Shown here piece by piece: positions 47,563 through 52,670 of a stretch of 64,000 bases of DNA. Position 1 is the stretch's first letter. Each line of letters begins with the position of its first letter. The stretch spans positions 992,001-1,056,000 of the forward strand of contig NZ_CP100762.1 of the NCBI RefSeq assembly GCF_024296665.1, in the 5' to 3' direction. This DNA comes from Salinilacihabitans rarus. GTDB taxonomy: Archaea > Halobacteriota > Halobacteria > Halobacteriales > Natrialbaceae. Position numbers and translations under genes: made by a program. Below the pieces are notes generated by a model. It was not told where the DNA came from and ran no database searches. It saw only the letters and a program-made list of their open reading frames with translations.

Positions 47563-49572
47563 ATGGAAGGGACGATAGACCTCGACGAAGTGGTCCACGA
47601 ACCGTCGCGGGAGTTCGTCGAATCGACGAACGTCCACGCCTTCATGCAGGCGTACGGCATCGACGACTACGACGAACTGATCGAGCGAACCACGGGCGAC
47701 GTCGAAGGCGTCGCCGAGAGCGGTCTCGACTGGTTCTGGGACGAAGTCGTCGACTACCTCGGGATCGAGTTCTACGAGGCGTACGACGCGGTCCGCGAGG
47801 ACGGCGAGGGCCCGCAGTTCACCGACTGGTACCCCGGCGGCGAACTCAACGTCGCCCACAACACCCTCGACCGCCACGCCGCCCGCGAGACCGAGACGCG
47901 CAACCGCGTCGCCGTCATCTGGGAGGGCGAGGACGGCGAGGTCCGGGAGGTGACCTACCACGAACTCCGCCGGCAGGCGAATCAGGTGGCGAACGCGCTC
48001 GAAGCGCGCGGGATCGAGACCGGCGATACCGTCGGCCTCTACATGCCGATGGTGCCCGAGGTGGTGTCGATCCTCTACGGCTGTTTCAAGGTCGGCGCGA
48101 TCGCGGTGCCGATCTTCTCGGGCTTTGGCGTCGACGCCACCGCCACGCGCATCGAGGACGCCGAGTGCTCGGTGCTCTTTACGGGCGACGGCTTCTACCG
48201 CCGCGGCGAGCACGTCTCCCTCAAGGGCGCCGCCGACGAGGCGATCGAACAGGCCGGTCACGTCGAACACGCCATCGTCGTCGATCGGCTGGGCGCCAGC
48301 GACGACGCTTCTGACGTCGAGATTCCGTGGGACGACGACCGCGACGAGTGGTGGGTCGAGGCCGTCGAGACGCGCGACGACGACTACGAGACGAAGTCGC
48401 TGCCCTCCGATCAGGAGTCGATGCTGCTGTACTCCTCCGGGACGACGGGCAAGCCGAAGGGGATCGTCCACACCCACGCCGGCGTACAGACCCAGTGTGC
48501 GAAGGAACTGTACTTCGGCTTCGACCTGAAGCCCGCCGACCGGTTCTTCTGGGTGAGCGACATCGGCTGGATGATGGGGCCGTGGACGCTGATCGGCGTC
48601 CACACCTTCGGCGGCACCGTCTTCATGTACGAGGGCGCGCCCGACTACCCCCGACCGGACCGGTTCTGGGAGATGATCGACCGCCACGGGATCACCCAGT
48701 TCGGCATCTCGCCGACCGCGATCCGCGCGCTGCGCAAACACGGCGACGAGTGGGTGGAGGGCCACGACCTCTCCTCGCTGCGCCTGCTGGGATCGACCGG
48801 CGAGCCGTGGGACCCCGAAAGCTGGCGGTGGTTCTACGAGAAGGTCGGCGGCGGTCAGGCGCCCATTGTCAACATCTCCGGGGGCACCGAAATCTGCGGC
48901 TGTTTCCTGATGCCGATGCCGATCCAGTCGCTCAAACCCTGTACGCTCGGCGGGCCCGGCCTCGGAATGGACGTCGACATCGTCGACTCGGCCGGGAACT
49001 CGATCGCCGACAGCCACGAGCGGGGCTTCCTCGTCGCGCGTGACTCCTGTCCCAGCATGACGAAGTCGCTGTGGAGCGGCGACGAGCGCTACCTCGATGA
49101 GTACTGGTCGACGTGGGAGGACCTCTGGGACCACGGCGACTGGGCCCAGAAGGACGACGACGGCTTCTGGTTCCTCCACGGCCGCGCCGACGACGCGCTG
49201 AACGTCGCCGGCCGGAAGGTCGGCCCCGCGGAGGTCGAGGGGGCGCTGATCGACCACCCGGCGGTCAACCAGGCGGCCGCCGTCGGCGCCCCCGACGACA
49301 CCACCGGTACGGCCGTCGTCGCCTACGTCATCCGCGAGGAGGGCGCCGAGGAGAGCGAGGACCTCCGGGAGGAACTGCGCGAGCAGGTCGGCGAGGAGCT
49401 AGGCAAGCCGTTCCGCCCGCGCGAGGTGCTGTTCGTCGACGAGTTCCCCAAGACCCAGTCGGGCAAGATCATCCGCCGGGCCATCGAGGCCACCTACACC
49501 GGCGAGGACCTCGGCGACATGAGCAGCATCGAGAACCCCGAGGCGCTCGAAGAGATCGAGGCGGCGCGGTAG
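47563..49572 (+). CDS. AMP-forming acyl-CoA (acetyl-CoA-like) synthetase
   Basis: This 669-residue enzyme belongs to the adenylate-forming (ANL) superfamily and activates a carboxylic acid to its CoA thioester via an acyl-AMP. Motifs: A3 YSSGTTGKPKGIVHTHAG at about 290-307, A5 ISGGTEICGCF, A7/A8 GRADDALNVAGRKVGPAEVEGAL and the catalytic lysine region PKTQSGKIIRRAIE with Lys635. The acetyl-CoA-synthetase-like length and core are clear; the preferred acid (acetate, propionate or longer) is not. An operator-like repeat precedes it, and a T-run follows its stop. AOR1 begins 80 bases downstream, so aldehyde-derived acids are plausible substrates. Confidence 0.9.
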   Translation: MEGTIDLDEVVHEPSREFVESTNVHAFMQAYGIDDYDELIERTTGDVEGVAESGLDWFWDEVVDYLGIEFYEAYDAVREDGEGPQFTDWYPGGELNVAHNTLDRHAARETETRNRVAVIWEGEDGEVREVTYHELRRQANQVANALEARGIETGDTVGLYMPMVPEVVSILYGCFKVGAIAVPIFSGFGVDATATRIEDAECSVLFTGDGFYRRGEHVSLKGAADEAIEQAGHVEHAIVVDRLGASDDASDVEIPWDDDRDEWWVEAVETRDDDYETKSLPSDQESMLLYSSGTTGKPKGIVHTHAGVQTQCAKELYFGFDLKPADRFFWVSDIGWMMGPWTLIGVHTFGGTVFMYEGAPDYPRPDRFWEMIDRHGITQFGISPTAIRALRKHGDEWVEGHDLSSLRLLGSTGEPWDPESWRWFYEKVGGGQAPIVNISGGTEICGCFLMPMPIQSLKPCTLGGPGLGMDVDIVDSAGNSIADSHERGFLVARDSCPSMTKSLWSGDERYLDEYWSTWEDLWDHGDWAQKDDDGFWFLHGRADDALNVAGRKVGPAEVEGALIDHPAVNQAAAVGAPDDTTGTAVVAYVIREEGAEESEDLREELREQVGEELGKPFRPREVLFVDEFPKTQSGKIIRRAIEATYTGEDLGDMSSIENPEALEEIEAAR

Positions 49573-49579
49573 CGACGCA

Positions 49580-49589
49580 CGTTTTTTGC
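49580..49589 (+). terminator. T-run terminator after the acyl-CoA synthetase
   Basis: Ten bases after the stop codon is acgttttttgcacc, a run of six T on the coding strand within GC-rich DNA. Runs of T alone can terminate archaeal transcription, so AOR1 may have its own promoter or be reached by read-through. Confidence 0.45.
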
Positions 49590-49652
49590 ACCGAATCGGT
49601 TCGCGGTTCCGACTCGCGTACAGCTAAGTCGTCGCCCTCACAAATGGTCGGT

Positions 49653-51317
49653 ATGCTCCACGCGACCGGCCCACTGCTCACCGTCGACGTCGGTGAGCGA
49701 ACGGCGACGAGAACCGAGATAGAGGAGGTCCTCGAGACGTACGTCGGCGGCCGCGCGGCCGCGACGGCGCTGGCCCACGAGCGCATCCCGTTCGACGCCG
49801 ACCCGTTCGGTCCCGAGAACCGCGCGTACCTCTCGACCGGCCCGCTCCAGCTCTCGCGGATGTCCTTCACCGGGCGGATGAACATGACGGCGCTCTCGCC
49901 GCTGACCGACGGCCTCGCGTCCACGAACGCGGGGGGCTACCTCTCGCGTAACTTCGCGGGGACGGGGATCAGCGTCCTCGAACTCGCCGGCGAGAGCGAC
50001 GAGTTAGTGATCGTCCACGTCACTGACGACGGCGTGGAGTTCGAGGCCGTCCCGGAACTGGCGGGCGCGACGGTTCCCGAAGTCTCGGCGCACGTCGCGG
50101 AGACGCGAGACCTCGGCCCCGAACACTGCATCGCCATCGGGCCGGCAGGCGAGAACCTCGTCAGGTTCGCGAGCGTGATGACCTTCGACTCGCGGGCGTT
50201 CGGCCGGGGCGGCCTCGGCGCGGTGCTCGGGTCGAAGAACGTGAAGGCGGTCACGTTCGAGGGCGACGCCGCCCCGGACGTCGACGTCCCCGACGTGCAG
50301 ACGGACGTCCACCGCGAGGCCGCCCAGTCCGACGACCGGATGAAGCGCCAGGGAACCACCGGCGGGACGGAGTTCATCAACGACAACTTCTCGCTTCCCA
50401 CCAGATACTTCGAGGGCTACGAGTTCGAGCACGCCGCCGACATCGGCGGGCGCGCCGTCGAGGAGAAGAAGTACGAGCGGGGGGCGTGCTCGACCTGTGC
50501 CTACGCCTGCAAGCTTCCGACGCGGGACGAGGCACGCGGCGTGGAGACCGAGGGCCCGGAGTTCGAGACCGTCTACTCGTTCGGCTCCCTCCAGGGCGTC
50601 GGCGACATCGTGGACGTGATGCAGGCGAACGAACTCTGTGACACGCTCGGGATGGACACGATCTCGGCGGGCGTGACAGTCGCGGCCTACCTCGCGAGCG
50701 AGGACGCCTTCGGCGACGCCGAACTGGCCCGCGAGGTCACCGAACGGATCGCCTACCGCGAGGGGATCGGCGACTCCCTCGCCGAGGGCGTCCACCGCTG
50801 TCACGAGGAACTGGGCGTCGACGACTACACCGTCAAGGGGATGGAGTTCGCCGCCCACGACGGCCGCGTCCTCCACGGGCAGGGCCTCTCCTACGCGGTC
50901 GCGAACCGCGGCGCCGACCACATGTACGCCGGCATGCTGAGCCTCGAGTACGCCGGCGAGTTGAACCCCGAGGGGACGCTGGGGAAGGCGGAGACCCTCG
51001 TCGAACGGGAGAACTACGCGGCGTTTCGCGACTCGGGGATCGTCTGCGCGTTCGGCGGCGACTACGTCACCGACGAGCGCCTCGCGCGGCTGTTCGACGC
51101 CGACTACGAGGACCTGCTGGCGGTCGGCGCGCGGACCGTCGAACTCGAACGCCACTTCAACAATCGCCGCGGCTTCGACCGCACCGACGACGGCACGCCC
51201 TACGAGCTACCGGACCTCGAGGACGCGATTCAGGAGTACTACGACGCCCGCGGCTGGAACGAGGACGGCACCGTCCCCGACGCGGCGGTGGAGTCGGTCG
51301 CGCCGCCCGCCGAGTGA
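49653..51317 (+). CDS. Aldehyde:ferredoxin oxidoreductase 1 (tungsten AOR family)
   Basis: This 554-residue protein is of the AOR family, tungstopterin enzymes that oxidise aldehydes to acids with ferredoxin. The [4Fe-4S] ligands are Cys279, Cys282 and Cys286 (ACSTCAYACKLP) plus Cys465 (GIVCAF), a spacing close to that of characterised AORs. Family blocks include TGPLQLSRMSFTGR, NAGGYLSRNFAGTG, AFGRGGLGAVLGSKNVKAV and LHGQGLSYAVANRGADHMY. The start is set at MLHATGP to match the paralogue; an ATG at 49644 is three codons earlier. Its length is slightly under the usual 600. It follows the acyl-CoA synthetase and has a close, inverted paralogue at 59622-61304. Confidence 0.92.
   Translation: MLHATGPLLTVDVGERTATRTEIEEVLETYVGGRAAATALAHERIPFDADPFGPENRAYLSTGPLQLSRMSFTGRMNMTALSPLTDGLASTNAGGYLSRNFAGTGISVLELAGESDELVIVHVTDDGVEFEAVPELAGATVPEVSAHVAETRDLGPEHCIAIGPAGENLVRFASVMTFDSRAFGRGGLGAVLGSKNVKAVTFEGDAAPDVDVPDVQTDVHREAAQSDDRMKRQGTTGGTEFINDNFSLPTRYFEGYEFEHAADIGGRAVEEKKYERGACSTCAYACKLPTRDEARGVETEGPEFETVYSFGSLQGVGDIVDVMQANELCDTLGMDTISAGVTVAAYLASEDAFGDAELAREVTERIAYREGIGDSLAEGVHRCHEELGVDDYTVKGMEFAAHDGRVLHGQGLSYAVANRGADHMYAGMLSLEYAGELNPEGTLGKAETLVERENYAAFRDSGIVCAFGGDYVTDERLARLFDADYEDLLAVGARTVELERHFNNRRGFDRTDDGTPYELPDLEDAIQEYYDARGWNEDGTVPDAAVESVAPPAE
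49761..49810 (+). repeat. Left copy of a 50-bp perfect inverted repeat (in AOR1)
   Basis: This 50-base coding segment is identical to the reverse complement of 61147-61196 in AOR2. It encodes TALAHERIPFDADPFG-type sequence. Other long near-identical blocks occur further into both genes. It marks a recent duplication or gene conversion between the two AOR genes. Confidence 0.88.
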
Positions 51318-51353: not shown

Positions 51354-52283
51354 TCAGCCCACCGACAGCGCCTCCTCGAGTCGGTCCTCCAGGTCGTCGA
51401 GTTCCTCGCGGAGCGACTCGCCCGCTTCGTCCTCGAGGTCGGCGATCCGGTCGGCGAACCCCTGCAGGCGCGAGAACTTCTCGCTCTCGTCGACGCCCGT
51501 CTTCTGGACGTACACCTGCTCGTCGACGTCGTACACCTCGTCTTCCTCCAGATCCGTCGCGGCGAGGACCACGTCCAGTTTCTCCGGGTCGACCCCGAGC
51601 ACCCACTCGCGGGGAATCCCGCGCTCGTCGAGGGCGTCGAGGACGGCCCCCTCGTCCTTCGGCCGCCGCCGTTCCCGGGTCGTCCGGCGCACCGTCCCGT
51701 ACCGCCCGTGGAGGCGCTGGCCCGGTCCGAGTCGGTCGAGCAGCGGTTCCCGGGCGGAGCGGCGGAGCCGATCTGCCCCGCGCTGGACGTCCGAGAGCAG
51801 GACGTAGAGGTCGGTCAGCGCGTCCGTGTCGAGCCGATCGAGGTCCCCGGCGTCGAGGCGTTCGAGCAGGGCCGCGAGCAAGAGCGCGTCGTCGTGGACG
51901 CGCTCGGGCGGCGTCCGCGCCTCCTCGGGCGGGACGAGAAACGGGCTCTCGCCCGCGGTCGACTCCGCCGGCGCGCGTTCGATCGTCTCGCCGTCGCTGT
52001 CGTACGCGGCCGCGAGCGTCACCGCGCCGGCGTACGGCTCGACGCCGGGTGGGAGCCCCTCGACGGGCACCGGCCCGTCCGCGAGCCGGTCGGCGAACAC
52101 CTCGAACTGCTCGCGCCAGAGCGTCCGCTCTTCCTCGCTGTCGAGGAAGCGAACGACGATCCGGTCGTCGAACGTCGCCTCGATCCGAAACCGCCGCTCG
52201 GAGACCGGGGTCACGAGCACGCTCCCCCGTTCGATCGACTCGCAGGCCTCCCGCAGGTCGTGCCAGAACGTATCGCCGGGCAT
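51354..52283 (-). CDS. Uncharacterised haloarchaeal protein
   Basis: This gene encodes a 309-residue acidic, mostly helical protein that I do not recognise. The N-terminal third is beta-containing (RFRIEATFDDRIVVRFLDSEEERTLW). The central part has a basic helical segment (LSDVQRGADRLRRSAREPLLDRLGPGQRLHGRYGTVRRTTRERRRPKDE), and the end is a coiled-coil-like helix (LQGFADRIADLEDEAGESLREELDDLEDRLEEAL). The start at 52283 is chosen because a TATA-like ctactt is 28 bases upstream. It converges on AOR1. A nucleic-acid-associated role is possible from the basic region, but this is a guess. Confidence 0.6.
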   Translation of the reverse strand: MPGDTFWHDLREACESIERGSVLVTPVSERRFRIEATFDDRIVVRFLDSEEERTLWREQFEVFADRLADGPVPVEGLPPGVEPYAGAVTLAAAYDSDGETIERAPAESTAGESPFLVPPEEARTPPERVHDDALLLAALLERLDAGDLDRLDTDALTDLYVLLSDVQRGADRLRRSAREPLLDRLGPGQRLHGRYGTVRRTTRERRRPKDEGAVLDALDERGIPREWVLGVDPEKLDVVLAATDLEEDEVYDVDEQVYVQKTGVDESEKFSRLQGFADRIADLEDEAGESLREELDDLEDRLEEALSVG

Positions 52284-52349
52284 GGCCGGCCGTTCGACGC
52301 GCCGGCGAAAGTAGTGACCCCCGGAGACTGACGGGCCGGTCACAGAAAT

Positions 52350-52385
52350 GCAAGGAGGAAGCCCACGACTTTAGTCGTGAGAGGA
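52350..52385 (+). mobile_element. Solitary hairpin resembling the right end of an IS200/IS605-type element
   Basis: The segment contains CACGACT-tt-AGTCGTG (52364-52379), a 7-bp hairpin flanked by aggaggaagcc and gaggaatccgac. This matches the subterminal hairpin style at the right end of haloarchaeal IS1341/IS605-type insertion sequences. No transposase or TnpB gene is present. It overlaps the 3' end of the MoaD/SAMP-like gene and provides its stop codon. It is best read as a relic or a non-autonomous palindromic element. Confidence 0.5.
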
Positions 52386-52670
52386 ATCCGACCCGCCGTA
52401 GACCGACGGCACCAGCCGGAAGACGTCGCCCGGCTCGACCGCGGTATCGAGGCCGTCGAGGTGTCTCACGTCCGTCCGGTTTTTCGTGACGACGGTCTTC
52501 TCCGCGAGGTCGTCGCCCGCGTCGTCGACGAGGCGTCCATCGAGTTCCGGGTACGCCGACTCGAGTTCGGCGAGCAGGTCGCCGACGCGCTGGGCGTCGG
52601 TCTCCCGGTGGACCGTCTTCTCGCCGACGTCCTCCCGAAACGGTCCGAAAAAGACACACTCGATCTGCAC
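52371..52670 (-). CDS. Ubiquitin-like MoaD/ThiS/SAMP-type protein with masked diglycine
   Basis: This gene encodes a 99-residue beta-grasp protein, started by GTG. The body ECVFFGPFREDVGEKTVHRE, LLAELESAYPELDGRL, KTVVTKNRTDVRHLDG and EPGDVFRLVPSVYGG matches the small sulfur-carrier/modifier proteins (MoaD and archaeal SAMPs), which must end in Gly-Gly to be adenylated. Here the diglycine (residues 92-93) is followed by six extra residues, SDSSHD, before a stop that lies in the inserted hairpin. Activity would need removal of this tail. In an AOR neighbourhood it may have supplied sulfur for the tungstopterin cofactor. Confidence 0.8.
   Translation of the reverse strand: MQIECVFFGPFREDVGEKTVHRETDAQRVGDLLAELESAYPELDGRLVDDAGDDLAEKTVVTKNRTDVRHLDGLDTAVEPGDVFRLVPSVYGGSDSSHD

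Follow-up and report, generated by a model that had tools for sequence, protein, structure and literature searches.

The window, a stretch of 64,000 nucleotides from the genome of the haloarchaeon Salinilacihabitans rarus (one contig of 3.62 Mb), contains a small gene for a MoaD/SAMP-like ubiquitin-fold protein, which ends within a short palindromic element. It is accompanied by a conserved gene and by an aldehyde ferredoxin oxidoreductase (AOR), and the locus comprises the following features.

49113-51317, plus strand: ORF containing AOR (AFOR_N, AFOR_C); the AOR part begins inside the ORF.
51354-52343, minus strand: conserved gene with no assigned function, immediately 3′ of the moaD-like gene; likely ATG near 52283.
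52340-52343, plus strand: target tetranucleotide TCAC (reverse complement of GTGA), abutting the left end of the element.
52344-52392, plus strand: 49-bp terminal-only IS605-derived element of the PATE type, AGAAATGCAAGGAGGAAG-hairpin-AGAGGAATCCGAC, with six solo copies and complete tnpB-bearing copies elsewhere.
52364-52379, no strand: perfect palindrome CACGACTTTAGTCGTG, the end hairpin of the element.
52371-52391, minus strand: element-supplied codons TCG GAT TCC TCT CAC GAC TAA (SDSSHD and stop).
52392-52397, minus strand: Gly-Gly codons GGC GGG, residues 92-93, read from sequence and translation.
52371-52670, minus strand: MoaD/SAMP-like gene, 99 amino acids including the six-residue tail; GTG start at 52670, TAA at 52373-52371.

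The protein matched Pfam ThiS with 45.8 bits (9e-12; cut-off 22.5) and the NCBIfam SAMP1 model with 66.3 bits (cut-off 60), placing a beta-grasp ThiS/MoaD domain of the ThiS superfamily in it; its best PDB match was 2m19. Translation gave the C-terminus ...LVPSVYGG-SDSSHD and agreed in coordinates and residue numbers with the initial annotation, which had described a MoaD/SAMP-like gene with a six-codon tail behind Gly-Gly. Thus, the primary translation product does not expose a C-terminal Gly-Gly. The gene body before Gly-Gly is intact, and pairwise comparisons, in which synonymous differences (0.32-0.57) exceeded nonsynonymous ones (0.13-0.20), gave no pseudogene signal in it. The same genome encodes three further ThiS-family proteins, two of which (SAMP1-like and SAMP3-like) have a free Gly-Gly end, and two ORFs with a JAMM motif (H-S-H-P...S..D; L181 and L182). 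The window protein resembles SAMP1 (HVO_2619), SAMP3 (HVO_2177) and the TK1065-type AOR-linked MoaD in its beta-grasp domain, conserved Gly-Gly and AOR neighbour. Its subfamily ends in PSVYGG, in contrast to PPVAGG of SAMP3 and PPVSGG of SAMP1, and it alone is capped by SDSSHD.

Archaeal MoaD genes are associated with AOR (PMC2948915), and we found AOR inside the 1.5-kb flanks of the moaD-like gene at 45 of 66 loci. This neighbourhood suggests a role of the gene in the supply of the tungsten/molybdenum cofactor. The order of the moaD-like gene and its downstream neighbour is common to six other genomes (G040, G015, G150, G146, G151 and G109) and spans several genera; the downstream gene itself had no Pfam match.

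The initial annotation had also located a perfect palindrome at 52364-52379, which is indeed present, and had placed the tail codons and the TAA within it. This holds for the last two codons and the stop, which lie in the hairpin proper, but not for the first four codons, which are in the flank of the element. Folding of 52341-52392 as single-stranded DNA yielded -6.4 kcal/mol (z = -2.24), and an Rfam scan of the locus returned no match. When up to 3 mismatches were allowed, the hairpin together with its flanks was found in 64 of 100 relatives at up to ~40 copies per genome, while the reversed control scored 0 everywhere, so that the hairpin is not a chance structure; a 38-nt pattern was likewise found in 37 of 125 genomes of the family (control, 0).

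Solo copies of exactly 49 bp, bounded by TCAC and CCGAC (once CCGGC), were present at six other loci. The sequence beyond the six copies is unrelated; at L100 the next few bases are partly element-like. L153 and L092 were of no use for testing the right border, since the bases past it are still similar to internal element sequence. Complete copies bearing tnpB together with the identical hairpin and left flank were found at five loci (L088, L091, L097, L147 and L148), which bears out the IS200/IS605-type origin proposed for the tail. The hairpin had been taken for a right end; we rejected this assignment, because the window sequence agrees with the left (5′) end of the complete copies and not with their 3′ end. 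For example, the complete copy of Natrialba swarupiae (L088) carries TCACAGAAATGCAAGGAGGAAGCCCACGACTTCAGTCGTGGGAGGAATCCGAC at its left end, with the tnpB start ~132 nt inward. The far end of the complete copies, downstream of tnpB, reads ...GTCGTGGGTTACTGAC, given also as ...CACGACTTCAGTCGTGGGTTACTGAC. The right border of the window element is formed by the left-end flank AGGAATCCGAC, unlike that of the complete copies, which terminate in TTACTGAC. By its sequence and constant length, the 49-bp unit is a discrete, terminal-only element of the PATE type that descends from tnpB transposons of the IS200/IS605 type, and with its single hairpin it is complete, not a broken edge.

No transposase gene accompanies the hairpin, as had been noted, and neither a Y1_Tnp TnpA nor a further copy of the hairpin was detectable in the host genome, where the window copy is the sole one. 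The host does encode one full-length TnpB (L021, C1:931987); it was rejected as the parent copy since its end hairpin, cgcccttcagggcg, differs. In the complete elements L088 and L097, the tnpB frame terminates inside the right-end hairpin (...STDKPTTSVVGY and stop), so that the end hairpin writes the C-terminus of TnpB too.

Palindrome-associated transposable elements (PATEs) have been described in Haloquadratum walsbyi, together with 52-bp terminal-only versions of IS1341-type (tnpB) elements, which were made by repeat-mediated deletion of the core and some of which apparently moved (PMC3119063). Like the H. walsbyi PATEs (ISHwa23, HqIRS46; PMC3119063), the window element is ~50 bp long, transposase-free and tnpB (IS1341-type)-derived, lacks inverted terminal repeats, has one near-terminal palindrome akin to an IS605-type transposon end and occurs as solo insertions. 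At 49 bp it is too small to code for a transposase, and its copies occupy unrelated sites in several genomes. Unlike those PATEs, it belongs to a sequence family found in Natrialbaceae and other haloarchaea, and by its position on a stop codon it has given a protein a new tail.

Removal of the 49 bp in silico restored TAC GGC GGG TGA, that is, Tyr-Gly-Gly-stop, the same ending as in 59 of 65 orthologues. Since the boundaries of the element had been set on other copies, recovery of the stop codon tests them independently. Four syntenic relatives with the same downstream gene (L115, L118, L119 and L154) read TACGGCGGGTGA at the site. The TCAC target is the ancestral TGA stop of the moaD-like gene on the opposite strand (G|TGA), and the last base of the element forms the third base of GGG, taking the place of the original G of GTGA. 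Because the reverse strand of the element begins with G, the last Gly codon was retained, and TGA was exchanged for TCG GAT TCC TCT CAC GAC TAA. We infer that a TnpA transposase would have inserted the element in an ancestor beside a TCAC overlapping the TGA stop, which would have kept the last Gly and swapped the stop for SDSSHD and TAA.

A second instance was found in another genus (L142/L354), in an unrelated protein that ends in ...WEQQ-SDSSHE and stop. Its orthologues end at WEQQ or WEQR, and one of them has the identical junction CAACAGTGAAC. Precise empty sites without duplicated bases are thus seen both in orthologues of the moaD-like gene from other species and at this second locus. 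The same event at a second gene indicates that the element acts as a portable module of six residues followed by a stop. The protein at L354/L142 (G014, C7:16380-17159) has 276 residues and no assigned function, and its orthologues of other genera stop before SDSSHE.

We then consider the tails of related proteins. The orthologue set consisted of 66 sequences including the window gene, 64 from the family and two from outside it. That orthologues stop right after Gly-Gly, a check proposed with the initial annotation, proved correct for 59 of the 65, a proportion suggesting that selection usually disfavours caps in this gene. SDSSHD itself was absent from all 65, and the hairpin does match IS-type ends; neither of the observations named beforehand as contradicting an insertion-derived tail was made. 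The tail had been regarded as exceptional, which is no longer tenable: six other orthologues carry unrelated tails (AV, AQ, SGSR, AVCGTDTPT, CDVIGTRVHA and one of 33 residues). Gly-Gly is kept in 66 of 66 sequences, tailed ones included, and the first tail residue is A, S or C in all seven tails of the gene's family. The 33-residue tail (L122; G122, C1:1171002-1171286) seemingly arose from short tandem repeats (CGAGCCGACGGCAACTA-like) and would represent another way of acquiring a cap.

Caps are still more frequent in the SAMP3-like paralogue. Among 140 distinct haloarchaeal sequences (loci L184-L353), 65 run beyond PPVAGG, by 1 to >60 residues, and these extensions are non-conserved. Nevertheless, 43 of 52 tails began with a small residue (A, S, T, C or G), a class that made up 125 of the 281 positions further along (Fisher p = 3e-7), and Asp or Glu occurred at the first cap position in 0 of 52 tails compared with 61 of 281 later positions; these statistics were obtained after collapsing close relatives, with kinship only roughly controlled and the capped lineages not independent. 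For comparison, in uncapped SAMP3-like genes the codon next after the stop specified one of these five residues in 15 of 75 cases. A trimming protease would be expected to leave such a constraint at a single position. Several capped SAMP3-like proteins (L290, L293, L294, L300, L303, L312, L314, L326, L329, L335 and L353) contain behind the first Gly-Gly another conserved segment, R[SA][FY]RGIS.RLA..YL.NLGG, which also terminates in Gly-Gly and would be a fused domain with no assigned role.

Short caps after Gly-Gly have precedents. QbsE, with its protease QbsD, and the sulfur carriers PtmS2 ('MV'), PtmS3 ('C') and PtmS1 resemble the window protein in this respect and in that a JAMM-family protease would be needed; capped bacterial sulfur carriers typically require a protease such as QbsD (PMC6006322). 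In contrast to the QbsE/QbsD and PtmS systems, no protease gene adjoins the window gene, the cap comes from a mobile element, and trimming is putative. In vivo, an artificial linear fusion of SAMP1 and MoaE is cut behind Gly-Gly by the haloarchaeal protease HvJAMM1, and this cleavage depends on the Gly-Gly (PMC4443979). We consider it likely, with a probability of roughly 0.6, that the element wrote SDSSHD onto the window protein as a cap that is trimmed behind Gly-Gly rather than as a lesion that killed it. The protein would be made as a precursor from which a JAMM-type protease would remove the tail, and the trimmed form could still be adenylated and serve in tungsten/molybdenum cofactor synthesis or in protein conjugation.

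The main competing explanation is inactivation of the protein by the insertion: the cap would block E1-like adenylation, and we would be seeing a recent, pseudogene-like allele whose role is covered by paralogous SAMP/MoaD genes. MoaD-type chemistry takes place on the C-terminal glycine (PMC4443979, PMC11323500), so that an uncleaved tail should block adenylation, and Thermococcus kodakarensis UblB deprived of its two glycines no longer complements (PMC11323500). Loss of the window gene could also be tolerated, since three further ThiS-family genes are present, and an intact gene body is expected after a recent insertion as well. Against this stand the caps in 65 of 140 SAMP3-like genes and in six other orthologues, with their constrained first residue, the in vivo rescue of a linear SAMP1 fusion by HvJAMM1 and the intact neighbouring AOR gene, and we regard disablement as unlikely. 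The initial annotation had left the choice at a needed protease or a disabled protein. Sequence cannot decide between these, yet the frequency of tails in orthologues and SAMP3-like paralogues favours trimming or tolerance over disablement, and the assertion that the tail must block the protein is weak. Trimming of SDSSHD is most likely, because caps are common and constrained at their first residue, because JAMM precedents exist and because the genome has two JAMM-motif ORFs.

Two other explanations appear less probable still. The tail might be neutral if the protein worked without C-terminal glycine chemistry, for instance as a structural subunit, and the recurrence in orthologues of tails unrelated in sequence and length would fit this idea. 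However, the retention of Gly-Gly in every sequence, under tails as well, and the small-residue bias behind it in the SAMP3-like paralogue argue that the junction matters, which makes a neutral tail improbable. The hairpin might, on the other hand, be the decayed right edge of a larger IS, with the tail as incidental read-through. IS605-type ends are plentiful in relatives, and the flank AGGAATCCGAC is present inside complete elements too. Yet the unit has exactly the 49 bp of the six solo copies, excision of that length gives back the ancestral stop, a precise empty site is not expected of a decayed edge, and it is the left end that the sequence matches. The constant length and the restored stop led us to reject a repeat-edge or truncated-IS origin, for which we see hardly any chance.

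At the locus analysed here, a 49-bp mobile element rewrote the C-terminus of a ubiquitin-like protein, the place where its chemistry happens, and the ancestral state can be reconstructed to the base. The insertion need not have killed the moaD-like gene; such caps are common in relatives and are probably trimmed. More tentatively, and with somewhat less than even odds in our estimate, haloarchaeal ubiquitin-like modifiers may be routinely made as capped precursors, processed by a protease that loosely prefers a small residue after Gly-Gly, so that their C-terminus would drift freely and a mobile element could write the cap. The element itself belongs to the known PATE type, and what deserves further attention is the pattern of putative capped precursors. 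Close to half of the haloarchaeal SAMP3-like proteins sampled have caps whose first residue is constrained, which points to precursor processing as a general step.
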